A DNA stretch of 64,000 nucleotides, from assembly GCA_947650365.1 (NCBI GenBank), contig OX393551.1, forward strand, positions 93,904,697-93,968,696, read 5' to 3'. The notes beneath the pieces were generated by a model. That model was not told the origin of the DNA. It made no database searches and saw only the letters and a program-made list of their open reading frames with translations. This stretch comes from Chamaelirium japonicum. Lineage: Eukaryota; Streptophyta; Magnoliopsida; Liliales; Melanthiaceae. The translations under genes and the position numbers were made by a program. Positions within the stretch are counted from its first letter, which is position 1. Every line of letters begins with the position of its first letter. Of the stretch, positions 3,518 to 64,000 are shown piece after piece.

Positions 3518-4129
3518 ACACGTTATCAGCATGAACAGATCAAGCCCAGCCGACCAGTCGCAAGAAAACAGAGAGAGAAACAAAGACAGAAGAGGGAGAG
3601 AAGAAGAGAGAAGAGAACGGAGAGATAAATAAAAAGGAAAGAGAAAAAAAGTCCTGTTCTAGTTCATTGGCACGACTAAAAAGAGATTAAATATGGAGCA
3701 GAAATAAAAATATATAAGTTAAATAATCTCTCCCATTCAGCACGAATATGTCGAGCCCAGCAAACCAGTCACAAGAAAATGGAGAGAGAAATAAAGACAG
3801 AAAAGAGAAAAGAGAACATAGAGACAAACGAAGAGAGAATAGACAAGAAGTCCTACTCTAATCCATTCGTCACGGCTATAGGTGTGAATTAAGAAGGAAT
3901 CTAAATTCCAAAACTCTAGTTCTTAATAATATAATTAAATCTTTCCATTCTTTTCTCTCTTCTTCTCTCTCTTTTATCATCTCTTCTCTCTTTGTTTTCT
4001 TGCAACTGGTCAGCTGGGCTCGATATGTTAGTACTGATAACGTGTTGTGAGATGGGAGAAAGAGAGAAAAGAACAGAGAGATAAACGAGGAGAGAAACGA
4101 AAAAAAGTCCTGCTTATGCCCTATGTAAT

Positions 4130-4195
4130 CTCCCAGGGATTAGGGTTTACCATAGATTTCTTAGGCCCAAAGTAATCTTACCTAATAAATAATAT
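4130..4195 (+). mobile_element. U3 fragment
   Basis: Telo-box, dyad and TATA region only, ending in a joint to ACCTGTGGCCTCTCC. Block C carries the same unusual joint on the other strand near 63,830-63,901, so the truncation predates the A/C duplication. Confidence 0.55.
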
Positions 4196-4273
4196 ACCTG
4201 TGGCCTCTCCAGTCTATTGGCTATGGGTATAGGTGTGAAGTAAGAATGAATATAAATTCCAAAACTCCACTTC

Positions 4274-4861
4274 TTAATATTTATACGACCCCTTTAGGGT
4301 GGGGCATATTTTATAGCTCTCTCTTTCTCCCATCTCACAACACGTTATCAGCATGAACATGTCGAGCCGAGCTGACCAGTCATAAGAAAACAGAGAGAGT
4401 AACGAAGACAGAAGTGAAGTTTTGGAATTTATATTATTTCTTTCTTTACACCTATGCCCGTGGCCAATAGACCAGAGCAGGACTTTTTCTCTCCTTTCTC
4501 TTTGTTTATCTCTCTGTTCTCTTCTTCTCTCTCTTCTGTCTTTGTTTCTTTCTCCGTTTTCTTATGACTGGTCGGCTGGACTAGATATGTTCGTGCTGAT
4601 AACGTGTTGTGAGATTAATTAAGTATAATAAATGAAGAGTCGATAGAGATCTGATGGGTCGTATAAATATTAAGAAGTGGAGTTTTGGAATTTAGCTTCC
4701 TTCTTACTTCATAACTATACCCATGGCCAATGGACTGGAGTAGGAGTTCTTTTCTCTTCTCTCTTTGTTTATCTCTCCGTTCTCTTCTCTCTTTTTTAAA
4801 AATTATATGACCCCTTTAGGGTCGGGCACGTTTGATGGCTCTCTCTTTCTCCCATCTCAAA
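4274..4861. mobile_element. R-U5 fragments with PBS-like sites
   Basis: Two plus-strand R-U5 pieces lacking U3 (4,274-4,339 and 4,801-4,861) are each followed by a PBS-like site. A reversed GA module and a minus PBS-like site (4,585-4,614) lie between them. A' has the same order from 30,504 to 31,076. Confidence 0.55.
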
Positions 4862-4975
4862 ACACATTATCAATACGAACATATCGAAGAGAAAAGAGGA
4901 AAGAAGTTTTGTAATTAATTAAATATTTATTTAATTAGATTCCATAGGGCTCGACTGTTCGTGCTGATAATATGT

Positions 4976-5200
4976 TGTGAGATAGGACAAAAAGAGAGCC
5001 GTCAAACGTGCCCCACCCTAAAAGGGTCATATTTTATTTATAGGGTTAGCTTACTTCGGGCCTAAGCAATCTATGGGAAACCCTAATCCATTAGAGAGAT
5101 CCGATGGTGGGCAGCCATCCAATCGAACGATCTTATAATAGTTATAATATTTTAAATTTTTTTTAAAAAAATATTAATTATTTTTAAAGCAAAAAATTTG
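4976..5200 (-). mobile_element. Nearly full LTR, outer end missing
   Basis: Runs from the TGTGAG end (element 3' end) through R, TATA, telo-box and the CGATCG-type U3 to the poly-A-like AGCAAAAAATT segment, where it passes straight into an AT island instead of ending in TGCCTCA. The A' counterpart at 31,188-31,405 has the same truncation. Confidence 0.7.
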
Positions 5201-5384
5201 TTTTTTTAAATTAATTATTTTACTAAAAACTTAATTTATAAATTTTTTTAATTATTAAATAATTTAAACGAAGATAAATAAGAGAGAAGAGAGAAGAAGT
5301 CCTACTCCAGTCCATTCGCCACGGGTATAGGTGTGAAGTAAAAAAAAATCTAAATTCTAAAACTTCACTTCTCAATAGTATTAT

Positions 5385-5593
5385 CTCAACATTACTATGA
5401 TTATCATAGTGAATTCTACTCTCTTCGTTTTAATTAAACTATTAATTTAATTAAAAAAATTATAGTAACAACACTCCACTTAATTATTATAGTAATAAAA
5501 TAAAGTGAGATGAGAGAAGATAATTAAATATTTATTTAGTTATTTAATTATTTAACTATTTAATTTATTAAATAATTAAATTAATTAAGTAAT
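5385..5593. repeat. Hairpin-capable AT segment before PPT
   Basis: Begins with CTCAATAGTATTATCTCAAC and holds partly inverted TTATCATAGT / ATTATAGTAAC segments, then a TTATTTAATTATTTAACT tract leading into the polypurine tract. Partners lie at 31,575-31,802 and, inverted, 62,437-62,665. Confidence 0.6.
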
Positions 5594-5612
5594 AGAAAGT
5601 AAAGAAAGAGGA
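5594..5612 (+). promoter_or_regulatory. Polypurine tract next to LTR
   Basis: A 19-bp, nearly all-purine run ends exactly where the LTR's TG begins. In LTR elements this position primes plus-strand DNA synthesis. The same tract stands before every LTR here that keeps its outer end (13,762, 29,308, 31,803, 38,565, 46,890; minus strand after 54,022 and 62,417). Confidence 0.65.
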
Positions 5613-5849
5613 TGAGGCATACTCAAATTTTTTGCTTCAAAAATATTTTACATTTTTCTTCAAAAAACTATAAAACATTACAACTATTGAGAGATCGTTC
5701 GATCGGATTGCTATCCACCGTAGGACCTCTCCTATGGATTCGGGTTTCTCGTAGATTGCTTAGGCCCTAAGTAAGCTGACCCTATAAATAATATACGACA
5801 CCTTTAGGGTGGGGCACACTTGACGGTTCTCTTTTTCTCCCATCTTACA
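5613..5849 (+). mobile_element. Full-length LTR, 237 bp
   Basis: Starts TGAGGCATACTC and ends TCTTACA, so it has TG...CA ends. Order inside: an AT-rich outer U3 with a TTTTTTGCTTCAAAAAT segment, GTTCGATCGG, a telo-box-like part, the dyad, TATAAATA at 5,783-5,790, then the CCTTTAGGGTGGGG motif and a CT-rich U5. It is preceded by a polypurine tract and followed by a PBS-like site, so it sits inside a tandem LTR-internal array rather than at an element end. Orthologous copies in A' and C are also 237 bp. Confidence 0.8.
5783..5790 (+). promoter_or_regulatory. TATA box of the LTR promoter
   Basis: TATAAATA lies about 65 bp before the LTR end in a CCCTATAAATAATATACGAC context. The same box is at 31,992-31,999, 38,753-38,760 and, on the minus strand, 53,846-53,853 and 62,240-62,247; the 13,781 LTR has a one-base variant at 13,950-13,957. 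Transcription would be expected to start in the following ACGACC segment (inference). Confidence 0.6.
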
Positions 5850-6278
5850 ATAGGTTATCAGTACGAACATATCGAGCCCAGCCGACCAGTCGTTAAAAAA
5901 AGAAGAGAGAAACGAAGACAGAAGAGAGAGAAGAAAACAGAGAGATAAACAAAGATAGAAGAGAGAAGAAGTCCCGCTCCAGTCCATTAGCCATAGGTAT
6001 AAGTATAAAGTAAGAAGAAATCTAAATTTGAAAACTCTACTTCTGTCTTCGTTTCTCTCTCCGTTTTTTTGTGATTGATCGGATAGGCTCGGTATATTCA
6101 TGCTGATAATATGTTATGAGATGGGAGAAAGAAAAAAGAGAATAGAAAGATAAACGAAGAGAGGAGAGAAAAGAAGTCCTGCTCTCTCTAGTTTAAAATA
6201 ATTTTCTACTATAAGAGAAAGAGAGAGAAATAAAGAAAACAGGAAGAGAAATTGGGAAAGAAACAAAAGATAACGTGT

Positions 6279-6479
6279 TATAAGATGGGAAAAAGAGAAA
6301 GCCATCAAATATGCCCTACCCTAAAGGGGTCGTATATTATTTATAAGGTAAGTATTATGAGATGGGAGAAAAAGAGAGTCATCAAACATGCCCTACCCTA
6401 AAGGGGTCAAATATTATTATTTATAGGGTAAGCTTACTTAGGGCCTAAACAATCTATGGGAAACCCTAATATATAGGAG
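6279..6479 (-). mobile_element. Double-R LTR fragment
   Basis: Two R-U5 pieces in tandem (6,279-6,352 and 6,355-6,479). Only the second, further from the PBS-like site, keeps the telo-box part of U3. The joint fuses the TATA-proximal sequence to the start of the PBS region. The same joint type is seen at 18,829, 32,525, 37,362, 54,999 and 61,505. Confidence 0.65.
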
Positions 6480-6829
6480 AAGAGAGAAATGAACGAAGAA
6501 ATTTAATTATATTATTTAGAAGTGAAGTTTTGGAATTTAGATTCCTTTTTAATTAAACTAAATATGCTATCAGCATGAACATATTGAGCCCAGCCGACCA
6601 GTCGCAAGAAAACGGAGAGAAAAACGAAGACAGAATTGGAGTTTTGGAATTTAGATTCTATCTTACTTTATACCTATACCCATGGTCAATGGACTAGAGC
6701 ATGACTTCTTCTCTCTTTATTTATCTCTCCATTCTCTTCTCTCTTCTTTTCTCTCTTTTGCCTTTGTTTCTATCTCCATTTTCTTACGACTGGTCGGCTT
6801 GGCTCGACATGTTCGTGCTGATAACGTGT

Positions 6830-6952
6830 TATGATTTTGGAGAAAAAGATAGAGTCATCAAACATGCCCTACCTTAAAGGGGTCATGTATTATTTATAGG
6901 GTACACTTACTTAGGGCTTAAGCAATCTATGGGAAATCCTAATCCATAGGAG
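6830..6952 (-). mobile_element. LTR-like copy, inner U3 to U5
   Basis: PBS-like site at 6,807-6,829 on its element-3' side. U3 stops at the CCATGG-like segment. A' equivalent: 33,073-33,192. Confidence 0.65.
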
Positions 6953-7457
6953 AAGAGAGAAGTGAACAGAGATATTTAATTATATTATTTAGAAGTGGTA
7001 TTTTTGAATTCAGATTCATTCTTATATTATTTCTATACCCATGGCCAATGTACTGGAGCAGGACTTCGTCTCTCTTCGTTTATCTCTCTATTTTCTTCTC
7101 TTGTCTTCCCTCCCTTCTGTATTCGTTTCTCTCTTCATTTTCTTATGACTGGTCGGCTAGGCTAGACATGTTCGTATAGATAACGTGTTGTGTGATCGGA
7201 GAAAGAGAGATCCATTAAACGTGCCTTATCATCAGGGGTCATATAAAAATTAAGAAGTGGAGTTTTGGAATTTTGATTCCTTCTTACTTCAAATCTATAC
7301 CCGTGGCCAATGGACTGGAGCAGGACTTCTTCTCTCTTCTATCTTCGTTTATCTCTCCGTTCTTTTCTTTCTTCTTCTCTCTCTTTTGTCTTCGTTTCTC
7401 TCTCCGTTTTCTTACGACTGGTCAGCTGGGCTTGACATGTTCGTGCTGATAACATAT

Positions 7458-7580
7458 TATAAGATGGGATAAAGAGAGAGTCGTCAAATGTGCCCCACCT
7501 TAAAAGGGTCGTATTTTATTTATAGGGTAAATATACTTAGGGCATAAGCAATCTTTGGGAAACCCTAATCCATGGGAGAA
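7458..7580 (-). mobile_element. LTR-like copy, inner U3 to U5
   Basis: Follows a complete reversed leader and GA module (7,255-7,457). U3 stops at the CCATGG segment and is joined to a GAGATTTAATTATATT spacer. A' equivalent: 33,693-33,811. Confidence 0.65.
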
Positions 7581-8147
7581 TAGAGAAGAGAAATGAGAGA
7601 TTTAATTATTTTTTTGAGAAGTGGAGTTTTGGAATTTAGATTTCTTCTTACTTCACACCTATACCCGTGGTGAATGGACTGAACTAGGACTTCTTCTCTC
7701 TTCTCTCTTCGTTTATCTCTTCGTTCTCTTCTTACTTGTCATAACAAATTATCAGCACAAACATGTCGAGCCCAGCCGACCAGTCATAAGAAAGCGGAGA
7801 GAGAAACAAAGACAGAAGTAAGAGAAGAAGAGAGAAGAGAACGAAGAGATAAACGAAGAAAGAAGAGAGAAGAAGTCATGCTCCAGTCCATTGGCCACGG
7901 GTATAGGTGTGAAGTAAGAATGAATCTAAATTTCAAAACTCCATACAAGAGAGAGAAGAAGAGATAAGAGAATGGAGGGATAAATAAAGTAAAAAGAGAA
8001 GAAGTCCTAATCCAGTCCATTGGCCATGGGTATAGGTGTGAAGTAAGAAGGAATCTAAATTCCAAAACTCCATTTCTATCTTTGTTTCTCTCTCTGTTTT
8101 CTTGTGATCGGTCAGTTGGGCTTGATATTTTCGTACTGATAACGTAT

Positions 8148-8273
8148 TATAAGATAGGAGAAAGAGAGAGCCATCAAACGTGCCCCTTCCTAAAGGGGTC
8201 GTATATTATTTATAGGGTAAGAAATCTGTAGGAAATCCAAATCCATAGGAGAGATCCAACAGAGGACAGCCAT
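8148..8273 (-). mobile_element. LTR-like copy with internal U3 gap
   Basis: Reaches the GACAGCC part of U3 but lacks the dyad segment. The A' copy at 34,380-34,524 keeps the dyad region. Confidence 0.6.
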
Positions 8274-8561
8274 CCTTCTTACTGCATATCTAAACTCATG
8301 GCTAATGGACTTGAGCATGACTTCTTCTCTTTTCTCTCTTCATTTATCTCTTCGTTATCTTCTCTCTTTTTCTCTCTCTGCTGTCTTTGTTTCTCTCTCC
8401 ATTTTTTGTGACTAGACGGCTGGGCACGACATGTTCATACTGATAACGTGTCGTGAGATGAGAGAAGAAGAGAGAAGAAAACGGAGAGATAAACGAAGAG
8501 AGAAGAGAAAAGGAGTCTTGCTCCATTCTATTGGCTACGGGTATAGTTGTAAAGTATAAAG

Positions 8562-8705
8562 GATGGCTGTCCACCGTCGGATATCTCCTATGGATTAGGA
8601 TTTCCTATAAATTGCTTAGGCCCTAAGGAAGCTTACCCTATAAATAATATACGACCCTTTTAGGGTGGGGCATGTTTGATGGCTCTCTCTTTCTCCCATC
8701 TCATA
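8562..8705 (+). mobile_element. LTR-like copy, U3 part to U5
   Basis: Starts at GATGGCTGTCC directly after a GA-module tail, the same joint as at 1,988. It faces the minus copy at 8,148-8,273 across one GA module. In A' only its U3 part survives (34,826-34,899). Confidence 0.65.
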
Positions 8706-9263
8706 ACACGTTATAAGTACGAACATGTCGAGCCCAGCTGACCAGTCACAAAAAAACGGAGAGAGAAATGAAGATAGAAGGGGTGTTTAGGAATTTAGAT
8801 TCCTTCTTACGTTATATTTATACCCGTGGCCAATGGACTGGAGTAGGACTTCTCTCTTCTCTCTTTATTTATCTCTTTTTTCTCTTCTCACTTCTTATCT
8901 CTCTTATGTAGAGTTTTAGAATTTAGATTCCTTCTTACTTTACAACTATACATGTGGCCAATGGACTGGAGCAGGAGTTCTTTTATCTTTCCTCTTCATT
9001 TATCTCTCTGTTATCTTCTCTCTCTTCTATCATTATTTCTCTCTCCGTTTTTTTATGACTAGTCGGTTGGGCTCGACATGTTCATATTGATAACGTGTTG
9101 TAAGAAGAAAGAAGAGAACAGAGAGACAAACGAAGAGAGAAGAGAGAAGAAGTCCTGTTTCAGTCCATTCGCCATGAATATAGGTGTATAGTAAGAAGGA
9201 ATCTAAATTCAAAAACTCCACTTCTTAATAATATAATTAAATCTTCCCATTTTCTTTTCTCTT

Positions 9264-9384
9264 CGTCTATGGATTAGGGTTTCCCATATATTGCTTAGGC
9301 CCTAAGTAAGCTTTCCCTATAAATAATATACGAACCCTTTAGGGTGGGGCATGTTTGACGGCTCTCCTTTTCTCTCATCTCACA
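9264..9384 (+). mobile_element. LTR-like copy, inner U3 to U5
   Basis: Preceded by the AATATAATTAAATC spacer and a CT-rich run; followed by a PBS-like site and leader to 9,455. A' equivalent: 35,450-35,571. Confidence 0.65.
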
Positions 9385-10058
9385 ATATGTTGCCAGCACG
9401 AATATGTCGAGCCCAGCTGACCAGTCGTAAGAAAACAGAAAGAGAAACGAAGACAGAGTGGAGTTTTGGTATTTAGATTCCTTCTTACTTCACACTTATA
9501 CCCTTGACCAATGGACTGGAGCAGGATATCTTCTCTCTTCTCTCTTTATTTATCTCTTTGTTCTCTTCTTGCTTCTTATCTCTCTTATGTCTTCGGTAAA
9601 CTCCACTTCTTCTCTATATAAACGAATAGAGAAACGAAGACAGAAGAGAAGGAAAAAGAGAGAAGAAAATGGAGAGATAAATGAAGAGAGAAGAAAGAAG
9701 AAGTCCTGCTCTAGTCCATTGGTCACGGGTATAGGTGTATAGTTCTCTCTTTTCTCTTTATTTATCTCTCCGTTCTCTTCTCGCTTTTTATCTCTCTTCT
9801 GTCTTCGTTAAACTCCTCTTATTCTCTCAATAAACGAATAGAGAAATGTAGACAGAATTCAGAGAAGAAGAGAAAAAAGAAATGAGAGATAAACGAAGAG
9901 AGAAGAGTGAAGAATTCCTGCTCTAGTCTGTTGGCCACGGGTATAGGTGTGAAGTAAGAAGGAATTAAAATTCCAAAACTCTACTTCTGTTTTTGTTTCT
10001 CTTTTTGTTTTCTTGCGACTGGTCAGCTGGGCTCAACATGTTCGTGCTGATAAAGTGT

Positions 10059-10166
10059 TATGAGATGGGAGAAAGAAAGAGCCGTCAAACGTGCCCCACC
10101 CTAAAGGGGTCATATATTATTTATGGAGTAAGTTTACTTAGGTCCTAAGCAATCTAATCCATAGGA
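10059..10166 (-). mobile_element. LTR-like copy, inner U3 to U5
   Basis: The AAACCCTAA part is shortened to CTAATCC compared with its A' equivalent at 36,245-36,365. Leader and PBS-like site lie at 10,000-10,058. Confidence 0.6.
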
Positions 10167-11222
10167 GAAGAGAGAAAAGAATGGAGAGATTCAATTATAT
10201 TGTTTAGAAGTGGTTTTTTGGAATTTAGCTTCCTTCTTACTTCACACCTATACCCATGGCGAATGGACTGGAGTAGTACTTCTTCTCTCTTCTTTTTTCA
10301 TTTATCTTTCCCCTCTCTTTTCTCTTCTCTTTTTTTTCTCACAACTCGTTATCAGCATGAACATATCGAGTCCAGCCGATCAGTCACAAGAAACCGGACA
10401 AAGAAGCGAAGACAGAAGAGAGAGAAGAGTGAAGAGAATAGAAAGATAAATAATTTAAATAATATATTTAAATTATTTAGTTAAATTCTAAATAGTGGTC
10501 GGCTGGGCTCGACATGTTCATGCTGATAACTATTGTGAGTAAGGAGAAGAAGATCGAAGAGAATGAAGAGATAAACGAAGAAAGAAGAGAGAAGAAGTCC
10601 TGCTCCAGTCCATTATCCATGGGTATAGGTGTTAAGTAAGAAGGAATCTAAATTCCAAAACTCCACTTCTTAATGATATAGTTAAATCTCTCTGTTTTCT
10701 TCTCTCTTCTCCCATAGAGTTGGGTTTCTTATTTAATGGCTCTCTCTTTCTTCCATCTCATAATATGTTATCAGCACGAACATGTCGAGCCCATTCGACC
10801 AGTCGTAAGAAAAACAGAGAGAAAAACGAAGACAAAAGAAGAGAGAAGAGAACGGAGAGCTAAACAAAGATAGAAGAGAGAACTTCACACCTATACCTAT
10901 GGCCAATGGACTAAAGCAGGACTTTTTCTCTCTTCTCTCTTTGTTTATCTCTCTGTTCTTTTCTCTCTTCTGTCTTTATTTCTCTCTCTGTTTATTAAGA
11001 AAAGAAGTTGATTTTAACGAAGACAGAAGAGAAAGAAGAAGAGAATGGAGAGATAAATGAAAAGGGAAGAGAGAAGAACTCTTGCTCAAGTCAATTGGCA
11101 ATGGGTATAGGTGTGAAGTAAGAAAGAATCTAAATTTCAAAACTCCATTTCTGTCTTTGTTTTTCTATCCATTTTCTTGTGATGGGTCAGCTGGGTTTGA
11201 CATGTTCGTGCTTAAAATATAT

Positions 11223-11345
11223 TATGAGATGAGCGAAAGAGAGAGAGCTGTCAAACATGTCCCACCCTAAAGGGGTCGTATATTATTTATAAGGTAATCT
11301 TACTTAGGGCCTAAGTAATCTATGGGAAAACCAAATCCATGGGAG
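11223..11345 (-). mobile_element. LTR-like copy, inner U3 to U5
   Basis: Lies in the 1.4-kb part of block A (about 10,720-12,150) that is missing from A'. The inverted block C keeps a copy at 56,541-56,661. Confidence 0.6.
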
Positions 11346-11396
11346 AAGATAGAAAAGAACGGCGAGATTTAATTATATTATTGAGAAGTGAAGTTT

Positions 11397-11538
11397 TCTC
11401 AATAGTATCATCTCAATGTTATTACGATTATCATAGTATCTCTTCTCTCTTCGTTTTAATTAAACAATTAATTTAATTAAAAAAATTATAGTAACATTAC
11501 TATGATAATCATAATAACGTTGAGAAGATACGATTGAG
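11397..11538. repeat. AT-centred imperfect palindrome
   Basis: Left arm 11,397-11,440 (CTCAATAGTATCATCTCAAT...) and right arm about 11,497-11,538 are inverted repeats of about 40 bp around an AT-rich loop with a short CTCTTCTCTCTTCG insert. As RNA or single-stranded DNA it could fold into a hairpin. Block C counterpart: 56,344-56,488. Confidence 0.6.
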
Positions 11539-11686
11539 AAGTGGAGTTTTGAAATTTAGTTTCCTTCTTACTTCATACCTATACCCATAGCGAATGGACT
11601 GGAGCATGACTTACTCTCTCTTCTCTTTTCGTTTATCTCCCCGTTCTCTTCTCTCATCTTCTATTTTTGTTTCTCTCTCCGTTTTC

Positions 11687-11779
11687 AAATATGCCCTACT
11701 CTAAAGGGGTCGTATATTATTTATAGGGTAAGCTTACTTAGTGCCTAAGCAATCTATGGTAAACCCTAATCCATGGGAG
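11687..11779 (-). mobile_element. LTR-like copy lacking U5 end
   Basis: Joined directly to leader sequence (GTTTTC|AAATATGCCC), so the U5 end and the PBS-like site are missing. C counterpart: 56,021-56,141, which keeps both. Confidence 0.55.
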
Positions 11780-12021
11780 AAGATAGAAGAGAACGGAAAG
11801 ATTTAATTATATTATTGAGAAGTAGAGTTTTGAAATTTAGATTCCTTCTTACTTCACACATATACCCAGGGCCAATGGACTAGAATAGGACTTCTTCTCT
11901 CTTCTTTCTTCGTTTATCTCTTCATTCTCTTCTCTCTTCTTCTCTCTCTTATGTCTTTGTTTCTCTCTCCATTTTCTTGCGACTGGTCGCTAGGCTCGAC
12001 ATGTTCGTACTGATAACGTGT

Positions 12022-12154
12022 TATGAGATAAGAGAAAGAGAGAGCCGCTAAGCATGCCCCACCCTAAAGGGGTTATATATTATTTATAGGATAAGCTTAC
12101 TTAGGGACTAAGTAATCTATAGAAAACCCTAATCTATGGGAGAGATCCGACGGT
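12022..12154 (-). mobile_element. LTR-like copy, U3 part to U5
   Basis: Ends in GATCCGACGGT and passes into the scar at 12,163-12,230. It matches 55,486-55,623 in C. The GA module before it is the empty-site equivalent of the MITE insertion in C: positions about 11,840-11,850 read CACATATACCCAGGG without an insert. Confidence 0.65.
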
Positions 12155-12162
12155 ATATCTCT

Positions 12163-12230
12163 TAATATTTGAACTTAGGGCCTAAGCAATTCGGGTGTGC
12201 CACTTCTTATTATCGAGCCCAGCTGACCAG
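12163..12230. mobile_element. U3 scar fused to leader
   Basis: A short minus-strand U3 piece jumps from the dyad (TAGGGCCTAAGCAA) to the outer LTR end (TTCGGGTGTGCCA) and is then joined to plus-strand leader (CGAGCCCAGCTGACCAGTC). The middle of U3 is absent. The same scar occurs at about 36,930-36,995 and, inverted, 55,430-55,495. Confidence 0.55.
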
Positions 12231-12591
12231 TCGTATCTCTCTCTTCTGTCTTTGTTTATCTCTTCGTTCTATTCTCTCTTCTTCTCTCTCTTCTATGGAG
12301 TTTTAGAATTTAGATTCCTTCTTACTTTACACCTTTACCCATGGTGAATGGATTGGAGAAGGACTTCTTTTCTCTTCTCTCTTTGGAGAAATGAGAAAGA
12401 AGAAGAAAAAAAAACAGAGAGATAAATAAAGAGAGAAGAAAGAAGAAGTCCTGCTCCAGTCCATTGACCCTAGGTATAGGTGTGAAGTAAGAAGGAATCT
12501 AAACTCCAAAACTCCTCTTCTGTCTTTGTTTCTCTCTCTATTTTCTTGTGACAGGTCGGTTGGGCTCGATATGTTCGTGTTGATAATGTGT

Positions 12592-12710
12592 TGTGAGATG
12601 GGAGAAAGAGAGAGCCGTAAACGTGCCCCACCTTAAAGGGGTCGTATATTATTTATAGGGTAAGCTTACTTAGGGCCTAAGCAATCTATCGGAAACCCTA
12701 ATCCATAGGA
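12592..12710 (-). mobile_element. LTR-like copy, inner U3 to U5
   Basis: A single R unit here, whereas the matching places in A' (37,362-37,557) and C (54,999-55,195) hold two R units in tandem. Confidence 0.6.
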
Positions 12711-12749
12711 AAAAAGAAAAGAAAACAGAGAAATTTAATTATATTATAT

Positions 12750-13761: not shown

Positions 13762-13780
13762 AGGAAGTAAAGAAGGAAGG

Positions 13781-37925: not shown

Positions 37926-37949
37926 CGACCCATTTAGGGTGGGGCACGA

Positions 37950-54420: not shown

Positions 54421-54506
54421 ATCTTCTCTCTCTTCTGTCTTCGTTTCTCTCTCCGTTTTCTTTTGACTGGTCGGTTAGGCTCGATATGTTCACGCTGATA
54501 ATGCGT

Positions 54507-54658: not shown

Positions 54659-54689
54659 CGTGCCCCACCCTAAAGGGGTCATATTAATC

Positions 54690-54990
54690 ATTTATTTAAA
54701 TAATTATTGAATTAATTCTCTTAATTAGTAAACTTACCTTATAAATATTTAATTATATATAATTGATTATCGCCATGGGTAAAGGTGTGAAGTAAGAATG
54801 AATCTAAATTCCAAAACTCCACTTCTCAATAGTATTATCTCAATATTATTATGATTATCATTGTAATGTTACTATAATTTTTTAAATTAAATTAATTAAT
54901 TATTTAATTATTAAATAATTTAAATAATTTAATAATTATGTTTACTGATTAACGTGTTGTGAGATGGGAGAAAGAGAGAGCCGTCAAACT
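54690..54990. repeat. AT island with truncated GA module
   Basis: Inverted counterpart of 12,800-13,095, containing AATTATATATAATTGATTAT, a short GA-module tail and the AGTATTATCTCAATATTATT boundary. Confidence 0.6.
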
Positions 54991-54998
54991 TCTCTCTT

Positions 54999-55195
54999 CA
55001 CCCATGGATTAGGATTTCCCATAGATTGCTTAGGCCCTAAGTAAGCTTACCCTATAAATAATGTACGACTCCTTTAGGGTGGGGCACATATACTGCTCTC
55101 TCTTTCTCTCATCTCATAACACTTATCCTATAAATAATATATGACCCCTTTAGGGTGGGGCACGTTTGACGGCTCTCTCTTTCTCCCATGTCACA
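54999..55195 (+). mobile_element. Double-R LTR fragment
   Basis: First unit 54,999-55,115 with telo-box, dyad and TATAAATA, joined through ATAACACTTATCC to a second TATA-R-U5 unit (55,124-55,195) followed by a PBS-like site. Two TATA boxes 75 bp apart point the same way. Confidence 0.65.
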
Positions 55196-55485
55196 ATACA
55201 TTGTCAGCACGAATATATCAAGCCCAGCTGACCAGTCGCAAGAAAACAGAGAGAGAAACAAAGACAGAAGAGGAGTTTTGGAATTTAGATTCCTTCTTAC
55301 TTCACACCTATACCCATGGTCAATGGACTGGAGCAGGACTTCTTCTCCACAAAAGAGAGAGAAGAAGAGAAAAGAGAATGAAGATATAAATAAAGACAGA
55401 AGAGAGAGATACGACTGGTCGGCTGGGCTCGATAGTAAGAAGTGGCACACCCGAATTGCATAAGCCATAAGTTCAAATATTAAAT

Positions 55486-55623
55486 GATACACCGTCGAAT
55501 CTCACCCATAGATTAGGGTTTCCCATAGATTACTTAGGCTCTAAGTAAGCTTACACAATAAATAATATACGACCCCTTTAGGGTGGGGCATGTTTAACGG
55601 CTCTCTCTTTCTCCCATCTCACA
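55486..55623 (+). mobile_element. LTR-like copy, U3 part to U5
   Basis: Inverted counterpart of 12,022-12,154. Preceded by the scar 55,430-55,485 (GTGGCACACCCGAATTGC). PBS-like site ACACGTTATCTGCACGAA follows. Confidence 0.65.
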
Positions 55624-55776
55624 ACACGTTATCTGCACGAACATGTCGAGCCCAGCGACAAGTCGCAAGAAAACAGAGAGAATAACAAAGACAGAAAAGA
55701 TAGAAGAAGAGAGAAGAGAATAGAGAGACAAACAAAGATAGAAGAGAGAAGAAGGCCTCCATTGGCCATGGGTATA

Positions 55777-55936
55777 CACTACACCAAAACAGACAATTTG
55801 TAACGGTCAATTAGTAACGGTTGTAACAAAAAGTGTTACAAATATTTGTAACGCCATATTCCTAACGATTTTTTTGTGTTACTAAACATTTTTATAACAG
55901 TTGGCTGTGTTACTAAATCCTGATTTTGGTGTAGTG
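55777..55936. mobile_element. CACTA-like MITE, 160 bp
   Basis: Perfect 13-bp terminal inverted repeats CACTACACCAAAA / TTTTGGTGTAGTG, with weaker similarity continuing inward. Flanked by the 3-bp direct repeat ATA (55,774-55,776 and 55,937-55,939), as expected for CACTA-superfamily elements. Inside are several GTAAC/GTTAC motifs in both orientations (for example 55,800-55,804, 55,813-55,817, 55,835-55,839). There is no coding capacity, so it needs a transposase from elsewhere. It interrupts a GA module at GGTATA|GTTATGAAG, a site intact in dozens of other copies. It is the only sequence here clearly unrelated to the LTR family. Confidence 0.9.
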
Positions 55937-56020
55937 ATAGTTATGAAGTAAGAAGAAATCTAAATTCCAAAATTCAACTTCTCAATAATATAATTAAATC
56001 TCTCCATTCTCTTCTCTCTT

Positions 56021-56141
56021 GTCCTATGAATTAGGGTTTCCCATATATTGCTTAGGCACTAAGTAAGCGTACCCTTTAAATAATATACGACCCCTTTAGG
56101 GTGGGGTATAGTTCTTGGCTCTTTCTTTCTCCCATCTCATA
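56021..56141 (+). mobile_element. LTR-like copy, inner U3 to U5
   Basis: First LTR copy to the right of the MITE. R motif intact but U5 altered (GGGTATAGTTCTTGGC). Confidence 0.6.
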
Positions 56142-56343
56142 ATACGTTATCAGCACGAACATGTCGAGCCCAGCCGACTAGTCATAAGAAAACAGAGAGA
56201 GAAACAAAGATAGAAGAGAGAGAAGATGAGAGATAAGAACGAAGAGATAAACGAAAAGAGAAGAGAGAAGAAGTCATGCTCCAGTCCATTCACCATGGGT
56301 ATAGATATGAAGTAAGAAGGCATCTAAATTTTAAAACATCACT

Positions 56344-56488
56344 TCTTAATGTTATCTTCTCAACGTTATTATGATTATCATAGTAATGTTACTATAATTT
56401 TTTTAATTAAATTAATTGTTTGATTAAAACAAAGAGAGACGAGAATTTACTATGATAATCGTAATAACATTGAGATGATACTATTGAG
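56344..56488. repeat. AT-centred imperfect palindrome
   Basis: Arms TTATCTTCTCAACGTTATTA and the inverse near 56,450-56,488 around an AATTAAATTAATTGTTTGAT loop. Inverted counterpart of 11,397-11,538. Confidence 0.6.
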
Positions 56489-56540
56489 AAAACTCCAATT
56501 CTCAGTAATATAATTAAATCTCTCCGTTCTCTTCTATCTT

Positions 56541-56661
56541 CTCCCATGGATTAGGTTTTTCCATAGATTGCTTAGGCCCTAAGTAAGCTTACTTTATAAA
56601 TAATATACTATCCTTTTAGGGTGGGGCACGTTTAATGACTCTCTCTTTCTCCCATATCATA
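56541..56661 (+). mobile_element. LTR-like copy, inner U3 to U5
   Basis: Dyad, TATA and R motif well kept. Counterpart of 11,223-11,345. The leader is followed by a reversed GA module and an inverted duplicate of its CTTCGTTAAA end. Confidence 0.6.
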
Positions 56662-57138
56662 ATACGTTATCTGTACGAACATGTCGAGCCCAGCCGACCC
56701 ATCATAAGAAAATAGATAGAAACACGAAGACAGAAGTGGAGTTTTGAAATTTAGATTCCTTCTTACTTCACACCTATGCCCATGACCAATTGACTGGAGC
56801 AGGACTTCTACTCTCTTCTCTCTTTATTTATCTGTCCATTCTCTTTTCTCTTCTTCTCTCTCTTTTGTCTTCGTTAAATTTCACTTCTTTTCTCAATAGA
56901 CGAAGAGAGAAACGAAGACAAAAGAGAGAGAAAAAGAGAGAAAAAAATAGATAGATAAACGAAGAGAATAGAAAAGAAGTCCTGCTCCAGTCCATTGGAT
57001 ATGGATATAGGTGTGAAGTTCTCTCTTCTATCTTCGTTTATCTCTCCGTTCTCTTCTCTCTTCTTTTTTCTTTGTTTGTCTCTCTATTTTTCTTATTACT
57101 AGTCGACTGGGCTCGACATGTTCGTGCTGATAACGTAT

Positions 57139-57260
57139 TATGAGATGGGAGAAAGTGAGAGCCGTCAAATGTACTCCACCCTAAAGGGGTCGTATATTAT
57201 TTATAGGGTAAACTTACATAGGGCCTTAGTAATCTATGAGAAACCCTAATCCATGGGAGA
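57139..57260 (-). mobile_element. LTR-like copy, inner U3 to U5
   Basis: TATTATTTATAGGG and AAACCCTAATCCATGGG intact. Between it and the next plus copy at 57,803 lies an AT scrap (57,480-57,520, AATATATTATTTAAATTATT) also seen at 10,447-10,480 and 36,650-36,680. Confidence 0.6.
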
Positions 57261-57802
57261 AGAGAGAAGAGAACGGAGAAATTTAATTATATTATTGAGA
57301 AGTGGAGTTTTGGAATTTAGATTCGTTTTTACATAACATCTATACCCATTGATAATGGACTTGAGGAGGACTTCTTCTCTCTTCTTTCTTCATTTATCTC
57401 TCCATTCTCTTATCTCTTCTTCTCTTTACTCACAACACGTTATCAGCATGAACATGTCGAGCCCAGCAGACCACCATTTAGAATTTAACTAAATTATTTA
57501 AATATATTATTTAAATTATTTATCTCTTTTTTCTCTTATCTCTTTTTCTCTTTCTTCTGTCTTTATTTCTCTCTCCGGTTTTTGGTGACTGGTCGGCTGG
57601 GCTCAATATGTTCGTGCTGATAACAAGTTGTGAGAAAAAATAAGAAGAGAGAAAAGAAGGGAGAGATAAACCAGGAAAGAAGTGAGAAGACGTACGACTC
57701 TAGTCCATTCACCACGGGTATAGGTGTGAAGTAAGAAGGAATTTAAATTCCAAAACTCTACTTTTAAATAATATAATTAAATCTCTCCATTCTCTTCTAT
57801 CT

Positions 57803-57924
57803 TCTTCCATGGATTAAGGTTTCCTTTAAAATGCTTAGGACCTAAGTAAGCTTACCCTATAAATAATATACGACCCCTTTAGGGTGGGGCATGTTTAACG
57901 GCTCTTTCTTTCTTCCATCTCGTA
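57803..57924 (+). mobile_element. LTR-like copy, inner U3 to U5
   Basis: Counterpart of 10,059-10,166 in A. Clean TATAAATAATATACGACC and R motif; U5 end changed to CTCGTA. Confidence 0.6.
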
Positions 57925-58588
57925 ACATGTTATCAGCACGAACATGTCATGCCCTGCTGACCAGTCACAAAAAAAGAGAAAGAGAAACGAAGATAGAAGT
58001 AGAGTTTTGGAATTTAAATTCCTTCTTACTTCACACCTATACCTATGGCCAATAGCCTAGAGAAGGACTTCTTCACTCTTCTCTTCGTTTATCTCTCCGT
58101 TCTCTTTTCTCTTCTTCCCACACTTCTATCTATGTTTCTCTATCTGTTTATTGACAGAAGAAGAGGAGTTTAACAAAGATAAAAGAGAGATAAGAAGTGA
58201 GAAGAGAATGGAGAGATAAATAAAGAGGAAAGAGAGAACTTCACACCTATACCCGTGGCCAATGGACTGGAGTAGAACTTCTTCTCTCTTCTCTTCGTTT
58301 ATCTCTCCGTTTTCTTCTCTCTTTTTCTTTCTCTTCTGTCTTCGTTTCTCTATCCGTTTATATAGAGAAGAAGTGGAGTTTAACAAAGACAGAAGAGAGA
58401 TAAGAAGCAAGAAGAGAACAAAGAGATAAATGAAGAGAGAAGATATCTTGCTCCAGTCCATTGGCCAAGGGTATAAGCGTGAAGTAAGAAAGAATCTAAA
58501 TACCAAAACTCCACTTCTGTCTTTATTTCTCTTACTGTTTTCTTAAGACTGGTTAGCTGGGCCCGACATATACGTACTGATAACATGT

Positions 58589-58709
58589 TATAAAATGGGA
58601 GAAAAAAATTTGTCAAACGTGCCCCACCCTAAAGAGGTCGTATATTATTTATAGGGAAAGCTTACTTAGGGCCTAAGCAATCTATGGGAAACCCTAATCC
58701 ATAGACGAA
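58589..58709 (-). mobile_element. LTR-like copy, inner U3 to U5
   Basis: Counterpart of 9,264-9,384. CTTACTTAGGGCCTAAGC and telo-box intact; U5 shortened. Confidence 0.6.
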
Positions 58710-59261
58710 GAGACAAGAGAATTGAGAGATTTAATTATATTATTGAGAAGTGGAGTTTTGGAATTTAGGTTCCTTCTTACTTCACACATATATCCATGGC
58801 GAATGGACTGGAACATGACTTCTTCTTTCTTCTCTCTTTATTTGTCTCTCTGTTCTCTTCTCTCTTCTAACAATACGTTATCAACATGAACATGTCGAGC
58901 CCAACCGACCACTCACAAGAAAACAAAGAGAGAAATGTTGATAGAAGAGAGAGAAGATAACAGAGAGATAAACGAAGAGAGAAGAAGTCCTGCTCCAATC
59001 CATTGGCCACGCGTATAGCTGTAAAGTAAGAAGAAATCTAAATTCTAAAACTCCACATAAGAGAGATAAGAAGAGAAAAGAGAAAATAGAGATAAATGAA
59101 GAGAGAAAAGAGAAGAAGTCCTACTCCGGTCCATTGGCCATGGGTATAGGTGTGACGTAAGAAGGAATCTAAATTCCTAAACTCCACTTCTATCTTCCTT
59201 TCTCTTTCCCTTTTCTTGTGACTAGTCGGCTAGGCTCGATATATTCATACTGATAATGTAT

Positions 59262-59405
59262 TATGAGATGGAAGAAAGAGAGAGTCGTCAAACATGCCCC
59301 ACCCTAAAAGGGTCGTATATTATTTATAGGGTAAGCTTACTTAGGGCCTAAGTAATCTATAGGAAATCCTAACCATGGGAGAGATCCGACTGTGGACCGT
59401 CATCC
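59262..59405 (-). mobile_element. LTR-like copy, U3 part to U5
   Basis: Extends to GACTGTGGACCGTCATCC and meets a GA module. Counterpart of 8,562-8,705. With 59,693-59,836 it forms an inverted pair. Confidence 0.6.
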
Positions 59406-59692
59406 TTTTTAATTCACACCTATACCCATGGCCAATAGAATGGAGCAAGACTTCTTCTCTCTTCTCTCTTCGTTTATCTCTCCATTCTCTTCTTTCTTTT
59501 TCTTCCATCTCACAATACATTATCAGCACAAACATGTCGTGCCCAATCGACAAGTCATAAGAAAACAAAAAGAAAAACAAAGACAACAGAGAGAGAAGAA
59601 GAGAGAAGAGAACGAAGAGATAAACAAAGAGAGAAATGATAAGAAGTCCTGCTCAAGTCCATTGGCCACGGGTTTAGGTGTGCAGTAAGAAA

Positions 59693-59836
59693 GATGGCTA
59701 TTCACCATCGGATCTCTCCCATGGATTTGGGCTTCCCATAGATTTCTTTGGCCCTCAGTAAGCTTACCCTAAAAATAATATACGACCCCTTTAGGGAGGG
59801 GCACGTTTGACGGCTCTCTCTTTCTCCCATCTCATA
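59693..59836 (+). mobile_element. LTR-like copy, U3 part to U5
   Basis: Counterpart of 8,148-8,273, but with the dyad region present, so the gap in A arose after duplication. Confidence 0.6.
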
Positions 59837-60407
59837 ACACGTTATCAGCACGAAAATATAGAGCACAGCCGACCAGTCACAAAAAAACGGAGAGAGAAAC
59901 GAAGATAGAAATAGAGTTTTGGAATTTAGATTCCTTCTTACTTCACACCTATACCCGTGGCTAATGGATTGGAGTAGGACTTCTTCTCTCTTATTACTTC
60001 ATTTATCTCTCCATTCTCTTATCTCTTCTTCACTCTCTTCTATAGAGTTTCAGAATTTAGATTCATTCTTACTTCACACCTATACCCGTGGCCAATGGAC
60101 TAGAGCAGGACTTCTTCTCTTTTCTCTCTTCGTTTATTTCTTTGTTCTTTTCTCTCTTCTTCTCTCACTTCTGTCTTTGTTTCTCTCTCTGTTTTCTTAT
60201 GACTGGTCGGCTGGGCTCGATATATTCGTACTGATAATATATTATGACAAGTAAGAATAGAATGAAGAGATAAACGAAGCGAGAAGAAAGAAGAAGTCTG
60301 GCTTTAGTCCATTTGCCACGGGTATAGGTGTGAAGTAAGAAGATATCTAAATTCCAAAACTCAACTTCCCAATAATATAATTAAATCTCTCATTTCTCTT
60401 TTCCCTT

Positions 60408-60528
60408 CTCCCATGGATTAGGGTTTTCCATAAATTACTTAGGCCCCAATTAAGCTTACTCTATAAATAATATATGACCCCTTTAGGGTGGGGCATGTTT
60501 GATGACTCTCTCTTTGTCCCATCTCATA
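60408..60528 (+). mobile_element. LTR-like copy, inner U3 to U5
   Basis: Counterpart of 7,458-7,580. CCATGGATTAGGGTTTTCC and R motif good. Confidence 0.6.
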
Positions 60529-61033
60529 ATATGTTTTTAGTACGAACATGTCGAGCCCATCCGACCAGTCGCAAGAAAACGGAGAGAAAAACAAAGACAG
60601 AATAGAGAGAAGAAGAAAGAAAAGAATGGAGAGATAAACGAAGATAGAAGAGAGAAGAAGTCCTGCTCCAGTCCATTGGTCACGGGTATAGATTTGAAGT
60701 AAAAAAGAATCTAAATTCCAAAACTCCACTTCTTAATATTTGTACGACCCGTTTATGGTGGGGTATATTTAACGGCTCTCTCTGTCTCCCATCTCACAAC
60801 ACGTTATCTATATGAACATGTTGAGCCCAGCCGACCTGTCATAAAAAAATGGAGAAAGAAACGAAGACAGAAGAGAGAGAAGAATAGAGAAGAGAACAGA
60901 GAGATAAATAAAGAGAGAAGAAGTCTTGCTCCAGTACATTGGCTATGGGTATAGGTTTGAAGTAAGAAGGAATCTAAATTCCAAAACTCCACTTCTCAAT
61001 AATATAATTAAATATCTCTGTTCTCTTCTCTCT

Positions 61034-61156
61034 TCTCCTATGGATTAGGATTTTCCATAGATTGCTTTGGCCCTAAGTAAGCAACCCTAAAAATAATACA
61101 TGACCCCTTTAGGGTAGGGCATGTTTGACTACTCTATCTCTTTCTCCCATATCATA
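61034..61156 (+). mobile_element. LTR-like copy, inner U3 to U5
   Basis: Counterpart of 6,830-6,952. TATA weakened (AACCCTAAAAATAATACA). Confidence 0.6.
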
Positions 61157-61504
61157 ACACGTTATCAGCATGAACATGTCAAGCCCAGCCGACCAGTTGC
61201 AAGAAAATGGAGAGAGAAACAAAGACAGAAGAGAAAGAAGAAGAGAGAAGATAATGAAGAGATAAATAAAGAGAGATGAAGTCATACTCCAGTCCATTGG
61301 CTATGGGTATAGGTGTAAAGTAAGATGGAATCTAAATTCCAAAACTCTACTTCTGTCTACGTTTCTCTCTCCATTTTCTTACGACTGGTCGGCTGGGCTC
61401 GATATGTTCGTGCTGATAACATATCTAGTTTAATTAAGAAGGAATCTAAATTCCCAAACTCCACTTCTCAATAATAAATTAAATTTTTTCATTCTTTTCT
61501 CTCT

Positions 61505-61702
61505 TCTCCTATGGATTAGGGTTTTCCATAAATTACTTAGGCCCTAAGAAAGCTTATCCTATAAATAATATTCGACCCCTTTAAGGTAGGGCATATTTGA
61601 CGGCTCTCTCTTTCTCCCATCTCACAATACTTACCCTATAAATAATATACGACCCCTTTAGGGTAGGGCACGTTTGACGGCTCTCTCTTTCTCCCATCTT
61701 AT
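61505..61702 (+). mobile_element. Double-R LTR fragment
   Basis: Units 61,505-61,626 and 61,631-61,702, joined as CTCACAATACTTACCCTATA. It shows directly that the joint runs from the PBS start into the TATA-proximal U3. Confidence 0.65.
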
Positions 61703-62180
61703 AATACGTTATCTTTTGTTTCTCTCCCCATTTCTCTCTACGTTTTCTTTGTTTCTCTCTCTTTCTCTTATAGTATAAAATAAAATAAATAAGTATTGAT
61801 AGAAAAGAGATAAAAAATTATTTTAAAATAGAGAGAGCAGGACTTTTTCTCTCTTCTCTTTTCGTTTATCTCTCCATTCTCTTCCCTCTTTCTCCTATCT
61901 TATAACATGTTATCAGCACGAGCATATCGACCCTAGCCGAGCAAACGTAAGAAAACAGAGAGAGAAACGAAGATAGAAGTAGAGTTTTTAAATTTAGATT
62001 TCTTCTTACTTCAAACTTATACCCATGGCTAATGGACGGGAGCGGGACTTCTTCTCTCTTCTATCTTCGTTTATCTCTCCATTCTCTTCTCTCTTCTTCT
62101 CTCTCTTCTTTATTCGTTTCTCTCTCGGTTTTTTTTGCGATTGGTCGGCTAGGCTCGATATGTTCGTGCTAATAACGTAT

Positions 62181-62417
62181 TGTAAGATGGGAGAAAAAGA
62201 GGGCCATCAAGCGTGCCCCACCCTAAAGGTGTCGTATATTATTTATAGGGTAAGCTTACATAGGGCATAAGCAATCTATGAGAAACCGTAATTTATATGA
62301 GAGGTCCGACGGTGGACAGCCATCCGATCGAACGATCTCACAACAGTTTTAATGTTTTATATTTTTTTAAAGAAAAATGTAAAATATTTTTAAAGCAAAA
62401 AATTTGAGTGTGCCTCA
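62181..62417 (-). mobile_element. Full-length LTR, 237 bp
   Basis: Plus strand TGTAAGATGGG to GTGTGCCTCA. Minus TATA box at 62,240-62,247; GATCGAACGATCTCAC in U3. Polypurine tract beyond it (62,418-62,436) and a TTATTTAATTGATTT island follow. Confidence 0.8.
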
Positions 62418-62831
62418 TCTTCTTTCTTTACTTCCGATTATTTAATTGATTTAATAAATTAATAAAATAAAAAGTTAAATAATTAAATAATTAAATAAAT
62501 ATTTAATTATCTTCTCTCTCCTCACTTTATTTTATTACTATGATAATTAAGTGGAGTGTTATTACTATGATATTTTTAATTAAAATAATCATTTAATTAA
62601 AATATAGAGAGAAGAGAATTTCCTATGATAATCATAGTAACGTTGAGATGATACTATTGAAAAGTGGAGTTTTAGAATTTAGATTCCTTTTTACTTCACA
62701 CCTATACCCGTGGCGAATGAACTGGAGCAGGACTTCTTCTCTCTTCTCTCTTATTTATCTTCGTTTAAATTATTTATTAATTTAAAAAATTTATAAATTA
62801 AGTTTTTAATAAAATAATTTATTTAAATAAA

Positions 62832-63057
62832 CAAATTTTTTTCTTTAAAAGTAATTAATATTTTTAAAAAAAAAAAATTAAAATATTATAATTGTTATGA
62901 GATCGTTCGATCGGATGGCTACCTACCATCGGATCTCTTCTATGGATTAGGGTTTCCTATAGATTGCTTAGGCCCTAAGTAAGATTACCCTATAAATAAT
63001 ATACGACCCTTTTAGGGTGGGGCACGTTTGACGACTCTCTTTTTCTCCCATCTCACA
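62832..63057 (+). mobile_element. Nearly full LTR, outer end missing
   Basis: Inverted counterpart of 4,976-5,200 with the same missing outer end, entering from AAACAAATTTTTTTCTTTAA. GATCGTTCGATCGG, telo-box, dyad, TATAAATA and R motif are all present. Confidence 0.7.
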
Positions 63058-63837
63058 ATATATTATCAGCACAAACATGTCGAGCCCCATAGAATCTAAT
63101 TAAATAAATATTTAATTGATTACATAACTTCTTCTCTCTTCTCTCTTCGACATGTTCATACTGATAACATGTTATGAGATAGGAGAAAGAGAGAGCCGTT
63201 AAACGTGCCCCACCCTAAAGGGGTCGTATATTCTTTAAAAAAAAGAAAAGAGAACGGAGAGATAAACGAAGAGAGAAGAACTCCTGCTCTAATTCATTGG
63301 CCACGGGTATAAGTATGAAGTAAGAAGGAAGCTAAATTCCAAAGCTCTACTTCTCAATATTTATACAACCCATCAGATCTCTAAAATCTCTTCATTTATT
63401 ATACTTATTTAATCTTACAACACGTTATCAGCACGAACATATCAAGCTCAGCCGGCTAGTCATAAGAAAACGGAAAGAGAAATGAAAATAGAAGAAAGAA
63501 CGGAAGAGAGAAGAGAACGGAGAGATAAACAAAAAAAAAAGAGAAGAAGTCCTGCTCCAGTCCATTGGCCATGAGTATAGGTATGAAGTAAGAAAGAATA
63601 TAAATTCCAAAACTCCACTTCTATCTTCGTTTCTTTCTCTATTTTCTTATGACTGATCGGCTCGGCTCGATATGTTCGTGCTGATAACGTGTTATGAGAT
63701 GGGAGAAAGAGAGAGCTATCAAATATACCTCACCCTAAAGGGGTCGTATAAATATTAAGAAGTAGAGTTTTGGAATTTACATTCCTTCTTAATTCACACC
63801 TATACCCGTGGCTAATGGACTGGAGAGGCTACAGGTA

Positions 63838-63901
63838 TATTATTTATTGGGTAAGATTACTTAGGGCCTAAGCAATCTACGGTAAACCCTAATCCATGGG
63901 A
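63838..63901 (-). mobile_element. U3 fragment at window end
   Basis: TATA, dyad and telo-box (AAACCCTAATCCATGGG) joined to a cut GA module at GGAGAGGCTACAGG. Matches 4,130-4,195 in A. A plus PBS-like site closes the window (63,984-64,000). Confidence 0.55.
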
Positions 63902-64000
63902 AATTACTTAGGGCTAAAGCAGGACTTCTTCTCGCTTCTCTCCTCATTTATCCCATTGTTCTTTTCTCTCTTTCTCCCATCTCACAACACGTTATCAGTA

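Follow-up and report, generated by a model that had tools for sequence, protein, structure and literature searches.

In alpha satellite, a monomer of roughly 171 bp is repeated head to tail. The array described here resembles it in carrying diverged lower-level copies within nearly identical higher-level units; unlike alpha satellite, it switches strand constantly and its units measure tens to hundreds of kilobases. Ape subterminal heterochromatic caps consist of the pCht satellite with segmental-duplication spacers, and virtually identical copies occur on non-homologous chromosomes, which was ascribed to ectopic recombination (PMC12154684). Both systems are arrays broken by spacers with near-identical copies assigned to non-homologous chromosomes; the base array here, however, is itself scrambled and of mixed orientation, and its spacer carries gypsy pieces. 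In plants, satellites of Lathyrus sativus originated from short tandem arrays that lie within LTR retrotransposons (PMC7004042). Both cases concern short plant repeats in long arrays, perhaps of retroelement origin, whereas the modules here are not head-to-tail and come without an identified parent element. In Eleusine indica, subtelomeric rearrangement alters the copy number of a gene, an example of plant subtelomeres generating structural variation (PMC10421919), as may apply here; no gene was recognised in our sequence, however, by reading frames and three domain scans. The titles and abstract openings of the literature searched yielded no published description of this array.

The window, i.e., the whole stretch of 64,000 nucleotides that was analysed, lies on scaffold C3 of a genome of 1.52 Gb with plant-type telomeres. 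We consider it quite probable that the window is a superunit of a hierarchical mixed-orientation array, whose blocks arose by recombination-dependent replication and whose macro-units spread by ectopic exchange.

Modules and blocks of the window

The window is built of short modules in both orientations, with local runs of about 131, 210, 270 and 357 bp. It is not a head-to-tail array of a constant monomer, as strand switches are frequent and tandem runs are short only. The following features were distinguished.

1-64000, no strand: window as one superunit, 174 marker-module copies with 84 strand switches
4032-15794, plus strand: block A, by self-BLAST and chaining; homology to C resumes leftward to about 2,950
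30502-40253, plus strand: block A', direct copy of A, 84-85% identity, by self-BLAST and chaining
51969-64000, minus strand: block C, inverted relative to A and A' and 84-87% identical to them in long pieces, by self-BLAST and chaining
7387-9455, no strand: palindrome in A, 2.1 kb, 80% self-complementary
58515-60602, no strand: corresponding palindrome in C, 79%
17833-18619, plus strand: 270-bp unit in local tandem array, 2.9 copies, 81%
47522-48352, plus strand: 357-bp unit in local tandem array, 2.3 copies, 86%
42602-45966, plus strand: left member of a direct pair, 82.5% to the right member, about 6 kb apart; no close match found in the C5 stretch
48593-51965, plus strand: right member of the direct pair, matching C5 inside a 6.8-kb piece at 89.6%
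25559-27345, plus strand: repeated segment, again at 43,198-44,991 (84.4%) and 49,198-50,998 (82.1%)
27352-29054, plus strand: repeated segment, again at 40,887-42,610 (79.9%)

Self-BLAST aligned A with C in inverted orientation over 6.8 kb (4032-10732 versus 64000-57236, 86.9%), A' with C likewise over 4.4 kb (30502-34899 versus 63750-59332, 85.6%) and A directly with A' over 4.4 kb (4282-8635 versus 30502-34899, 84.4%), and additional pieces extended the block matches to 15794, 40253 and 51969. The stretches between the blocks are also related to each other. Collinear chains reached 9.6 kb for A-A', 11.7 kb for A-C and 9.75 kb for A'-C. On the wrong strand, A-A' and A-C gave chains of 5.4 and 5.6 kb composed of 24 and 23 short pieces; across 552 pairings of 10-kb windows, placed every 2 kb on both strands and including the true pairs, the median chain was 4.75 kb. 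The 510 self-matches of 500 bp or more had a mean identity of 76%, and the six of 3 kb or more a mean of 84.8%.

The strand order of the marker modules, present in 29 copies in A, 26 in A' and 29 in C, agreed with these alignments. The edit distance was 4 between A and A' (one of 5000 shuffles as low), 4 between A and inverted C (0/5000) and 5 between A' and inverted C (11/5000); comparing A with C without inversion gave a distance of 10, and 3089 of the 5000 shuffles were as low. Together, the chain and strand-order controls ruled out chance resemblance of modules as the source of the block match. They confirmed the claim of the earlier note that an 11-12 kb block is present three times with one copy inverted; the copies are collinear at 84-87%, and matched segments are far more alike than unrelated modules. 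The equal lengths that the note gives, without coordinates, for two triples of full LTRs (237 and 236 bp) would be expected of homologous copies. For the main alignments, the block edges proposed at 4,025, 15,800, 30,504, 40,240 and 51,965 were accurate to within about 15 bp, whereas 64,000 is the window end only: block C runs beyond it, up to about 65,293, with the gypsy-bearing spacer next. Since A-C homology continues past two of the edges, these are not all the clean duplication ends they had been taken for. The window and the C57 and C5 stretches contain no N, and the inner block joints lie in gapless sequence; a single 47-kb alignment to contig C57 covers window 8,555-55,546 and thereby crosses both joints of A' as well as the right-hand edge of A and the inner edge of C.

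The earlier reading of the modules as LTRs was not supported as stated. No match with at most one mismatch to one primer-binding site was found, homology edges lie at many positions with no single fixed edge, and no retroelement domain was detected in the three window reading frames scanned, of 30 listed. Column profiles around seven motifs showed conservation fading on both sides without a clean unit edge. The modules carry a TATA-like box, one form of which occurs 88 times when up to 3 mismatches are allowed. The window yielded no tRNA genes, no Rfam families at gathering scores and no coding product recognised by reading frames and three domain scans; a sub-threshold Pfam match to a holin among the three window reading frames was taken for chance.

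Copies elsewhere in the genome

In each genome search 40 candidates were scored, so that all genome counts are lower bounds. The window is collinear with C57 (98.4% in the main piece) and, in rearranged form, with C5:0.26-0.33 Mb (about 91%), where the C part is changed: it is broken at window 59,658, the outer portion being located beyond the spacer. C57 lacks window 7,605-8,554 (950 bp, in the A palindrome), and the joint there shows microhomology of about 2 bp. A young LTR insertion beside the window shows a 5-bp target duplication, and its site is empty in C57. Comparison of the palindrome arms between C5 and C57 gave identities of 91.9-93.6%, which do not discriminate which arm corresponds to which. 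Segmental duplications are usually defined by at least 1 kb and at least 90% identity; A, A' and C, at 84-87%, fall below this cut, whereas the window versus C57 lies above it.

Trees of the corresponding segments, as the earlier note had proposed, were calculated for A, A' and C from three loci. All inner branches received 100/100 (6/6 in the tree of nine rows, 5/5 in that of eight); in the first tree, C5 was represented in class C by the outer copy beyond the spacer, and the second tree had no C row for C5. Sequences grouped by block class and not by locus, which places the triplication before the separation of the loci. Large scrambled blocks were duplicated, one in inverted orientation, and this part of the earlier account stands. 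By these comparisons, however, the triplication is not peculiar to the window's locus, and the statement that the locus itself grew fails, as the blocks also occur at C57 and C5; a purely local duplication was rejected on the same grounds. "Three-copy" likewise applies to a single level only, and the hierarchy has further copies elsewhere (40 or more scored matches with each of four probes).

To the right of the window on C3, past the spacer, which contains a gypsy gag (PF03732, 5.8e-06), samples show the window again in inverted orientation: those at +84, +94, +124 and +134 kb correspond to window 56.5, 46.4, 12.7 and 2.8 kb, in inverted order. Identity in this far arm is 93% next to the spacer and drops to 87% at greater distance. 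Two of the 20 C3 samples matched nothing, both inside the presumed inverted arm, one gave a weak 68% match to the spacer only and one matched the spacer alone; on C5, 5/20 samples had no array similarity. All ten full-length spacer-junction matches among the 40 scored had the window-350 marker 57.7-79.1 kb away in the right orientation, which puts the superunit's two ends 58-79 kb apart at ten places; a 91-kb pairing on C171 was left out of the count, as that junction already had its partner at 58 kb. Direct copies on C3 at 92.76, 92.94 and 93.12 Mb, about 180 kb apart, were 98.8-99.2% identical over 600 bp. Sampling 20 kb past the match to window 4,025 hit window 23.0-27.3 kb on the expected strand at 20/20 loci, taken from the 40 scored.

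At one sample, eight loci were 98.3-99.8% identical over 1.05-1.2 kb: five on chromosome scaffolds C5, C6 and C7 (the starts of all three, the end of C7, and C5 at 83.7 Mb) and three on the unplaced contigs C32, C44 and C77. All eight had a partial junction match at 171-181 kb, and seven an inverted partner 648-703 kb off. By markers, these are macro-units of 0.65-0.87 Mb with inverted partner copies; they were compared at markers and short samples, between which continuity is inferred. Partner copies at three loci were 99.5-99.7% identical across loci and 94.6-94.8% identical to the first C5 copy (576 bp). Identities of partner and direct copies are BLAST values, and global values of about 55%, obtained with loci in opposite orientation, were set aside. 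Higher-level units are thus more alike than lower ones: 84-87% for blocks, about 91-98% for superunits and 98.3-99.8%, at the one sample, for macro-units.

One probe had 22 scored matches on chromosome scaffolds, of which 13 are no more than 2 Mb, and 21 no more than 15 Mb, away from a scaffold end. For the window this distance is 6.2 Mb. Five of the 12 chromosome-size scaffolds start with N. C8, C9, C11 and C12 were absent among the matches listed, with 40 scored per search. As far as the scaffolds are right, the eight loci are near-identical copies on non-homologous chromosomes; scaffold placement is uncertain and is the main caveat on interchromosomal copying. Some of the near-identical macro-units could be haplotypes of one locus, yet a diploid could accommodate eight copies only with four loci or more.

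Possible origin of the array

One might regard the window as a cluster that grew in place from nested LTR insertions and solo LTRs, with the blocks representing two local segmental duplications. The TATA-like box would fit, and real retroelements adjoin the window, namely the gypsy gag in the spacer and the young LTR insertion. We nevertheless hold this origin to be very unlikely: the blocks are common to C57 and C5 and predate their separation, dozens of copies exist elsewhere, and the modules show neither a match to the one primer site compared nor a single fixed edge. As a locus-specific history it is ruled out by the block trees. Least of all do we expect an assembly artefact, in which collapsed or misjoined satellite contigs created false block and interchromosomal copies, even though scaffolds beginning with N, the location of 18 of the 40 scored matches of the first probe on unplaced contigs, and the round-number sizes of some contigs (C57, 1,675,000; C20, 2,670,000) might suggest it. 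The blocks differ by 13-16% and are joined gap-free in stretches differing by about 1.6% (C57) and 9% (C5), and C57 lacks both the retrotransposon insertion and the 950 bp present in C3. Misassembly as the source of the three blocks was rejected from this comparison.

Plain satellite evolution by unequal crossing-over alone, with the blocks as ordinary higher-order repeats, is a more serious candidate but still an unlikely one. Direct repeats at about 6, 26 and 180 kb and the presence in C5 of one member of the 6-kb pair are consistent with it. Inverted copies are not produced by unequal crossing-over between direct repeats alone, however, and the frequent strand switches, the kilobase palindromes, the inverted block and the sampled inverted superunit argue against it. 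A further possibility, which we regard as rather improbable, is that the macro-unit, a scrambled array containing a partial inverted copy of itself, is copied between chromosomes as a unit, representing selfish knob-like heterochromatin propagated by inverted-repeat-driven break-induced replication, perhaps with meiotic drive. Such copying would be fast enough to make copies on different chromosomes more alike than the two copies of a single locus.

For the superunit of a hierarchical array, which we favour, the blocks would have been duplicated and inverted via recombination-dependent replication with template switching, in an array rich in templates of both orientations. Divergence of the copies would then have accumulated, and later, probably recently, ectopic recombination or break-induced replication would have carried whole macro-units from one chromosome to another. 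No breakpoint bears a clear signature of one mechanism. The array would most likely behave as heterochromatin.

The array represents a layered record in which nested levels of different age lie within one array, with inverted copies at several scales, and the steps of array building can therefore be ordered. This allows asking whether plant chromosomes exchange repeat blocks of very large size, as reported for African apes.

Block homology within the window

Self-alignment of the window bore out the proposal of an earlier note that a block of 11-12 kb is present in three copies, one of them inverted, and the long pieces shared among the copies were 84-87% identical.

Features found by self-alignment (window positions)
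4,032-15,794, + strand: block A
30,502-40,253, + strand: block A', direct copy
51,969-64,000 within the window, inverted: block C
42,602-45,966 with 48,593-51,965: long repeat pair between blocks, 82.5%
25,559-27,345 with 43,198-44,991: long repeat pair between blocks, 84.4%
27,352-29,054 with 40,887-42,610: long repeat pair between blocks, 79.9%

The ends of the main alignments lay at most ~15 bp from the block edges proposed in that note, but C runs past the window end to ~65.3 kb. The homology between A and C, after a gap, picks up again left of A as far as ~2.95 kb, and the blocks are not closed units. In total, 99.2% of window positions fall within some self-match with an E value of at most 1e-10, at a median depth of 130, and self-matches of at least 500 bp cover 95.3%. 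Since the whole window is built of related modules, long chance chains had to be controlled for. Collinear chains of the true block pairs extended over 9.6-11.7 kb, compared to 5.4 and 5.6 kb, made of many short pieces, when these blocks were compared on the wrong strand and a background median of 4.75 kb (552 pairings of 10-kb windows, true pairs counted in), demonstrating that matched segments exceed background similarity. The strand order of one marker module was concordant among the blocks and discordant for A versus un-inverted C.

Local tandem runs of modules of ~131, 210, 270 and 357 bp were observed, and one marker module is present in 174 copies with 84 strand switches along the array. 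The modules had been taken for LTRs, which was not confirmed: homology breaks fall at many places, and one primer-site motif was absent from the window with up to one mismatch allowed. Neither tRNA genes nor Rfam families at gathering scores were matched in the window, and its 30 reading frames of at least 100 codons (longest, 214 codons) look like translations of modules.

Corresponding loci and the inverted arm

The window lies at C3:93,904,697-93,968,696. Contig C57 matched almost all of it as three pieces, at 97.2, 98.4 and 98.9%; the interruptions are a 950-bp segment that C57 lacks and a short gap around 55.7 kb. The absent segment (window 7605-8554) lies inside a palindrome in block A that measures 2.1 kb, and the joint shows microhomology of ~2 bp. 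Pieces of C5:0.26-0.33 Mb matched at 89.6-93.0%, apart from window 42.6-47.6 kb, for which the best matches in C5 reach just 82-83%, and the C part, which breaks off at window 59,658 and resumes beyond the spacer in opposite orientation.

Trees were calculated for two block segments from the C3, C57 and C5 loci; for C5, block C is represented in the first tree by the copy on the far side of the spacer and has no row in the second. Copies clustered by block class, with 100/100 support at every inner branch of both trees. This grouping by block class and not by locus shows that the triplication predates the separation of the window, C57 and C5 loci.

The spacer right of the window carries a gypsy gag domain. 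In C3 it also contains a young LTR insertion with 2.33-kb ends 98.5% identical and a 5-bp target duplication; the corresponding site in C57 is empty.

Feature right of the window (C3)
L026:4647 to L049:4683 (two sequence stretches of the assembly), from ~4.6 kb to ~14.7 kb past the right window end: LTR retrotransposon insertion of young age

Past the C3 spacer the order of the window is inverted: successive samples map to window positions falling from 56.5 to 2.0 kb. Their identity is 93% close to the spacer and 87% at greater distance, and inside this series two samples matched nothing. Along C3:93.76-94.15 Mb, 16 of 20 samples matched the array, the other four comprising one spacer match, one weak spacer match and two without any match. 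Along C5:0.2-1.02 Mb, array or spacer was matched by 15 of 20. Both arms are present close to the spacer in C57 and C5. In C5, truncated and full arm have swapped places, which suggests an inversion between the arms, arm identities being non-discriminating here.

Macro-units across the assembly

The assembly comprises 1.52 Gb, and its scaffold C3 has telomere repeats of the plant type at its beginning. For each probe 40 matches were scored, so that all genome counts are lower bounds. The probe from window position 4,025 yielded at least 40 matches, all 40 scored being full length; 22 lay on chromosome-size scaffolds (eight of the 12), and for 13 of these 22 matches the scaffold end was no more than 2 Mb away. 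Ten of 40 scored matches to the spacer-junction probe were full length, and all ten sit 57.7-79.1 kb from a window-350 marker in the right orientation. Sampling 20 kb further on at 20 of the 40 scored window-4,025 loci showed all 20 still collinear with the window.

The sampled loci divide into families. One comprises eight loci (starts of C5, C6 and C7, end of C7, C5 at 83.7 Mb, and unplaced contigs C32, C44 and C77), which are 98.3-99.8% identical at the sample 20 kb on. In all eight the junction is matched in part at 171-181 kb; seven have an inverted partner 648-703 kb away, and in five the junction is matched again at 805-869 kb. Partner copies at C5 start, C6 start and C5 at 83.0 Mb are 99.5-99.7% identical across loci, whereas each is just 94.6-94.8% identical to the first copy of C5. 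The C5 and C6 macro-units are near-identical yet carry two compensating size differences. At 385 kb in both scaffolds, the distance between a marker and the first probe is ~7.3 kb shorter in C5 than in C6, and the next marker agrees again. A further marker revealed direct copies on C3 at 92.76, 92.94 and 93.12 Mb, the first copies being 98.8-99.2% identical over 600 bp; this ~180-kb spacing adds another direct period to the array. Each of the three has a second match ~37.4 kb on.

The first 300 bases of C8, C9, C12, C16, C20 and C43 (stretches L074, L075, L078, L082, L084 and L086) did not match the window's array. They open with a short repeat of ~23 bp (GTACGATCCATTCTAATTCATTC-like), perhaps another terminal or centromeric satellite.

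Probable mode of array growth

The array has nested levels with rising identity and inverted copies at several scales. Near-identity between scaffolds, whose placement is uncertain, is known at markers and samples, between which we infer the macro-units to be continuous. As the array offers similar templates in both orientations everywhere, broken replication forks probably restart on wrong templates, resulting in direct and inverted block copies; in a later step, whole macro-units would be exchanged or copied between different chromosomes. For ape subterminal caps, PMC12154684 reports virtually identical copies on non-homologous chromosomes, with ectopic recombination as the suggested cause. 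The array probably works in a similar way; with telomere proximity and a heterochromatic state only putative for it, we do not claim that it belongs to this class. The C5 layout, whose C part differs from that of the window, slightly lowers confidence in the best explanation, but a nested array built by block copying and inversion, followed by interchromosomal spread of macro-units, is likely as a whole.
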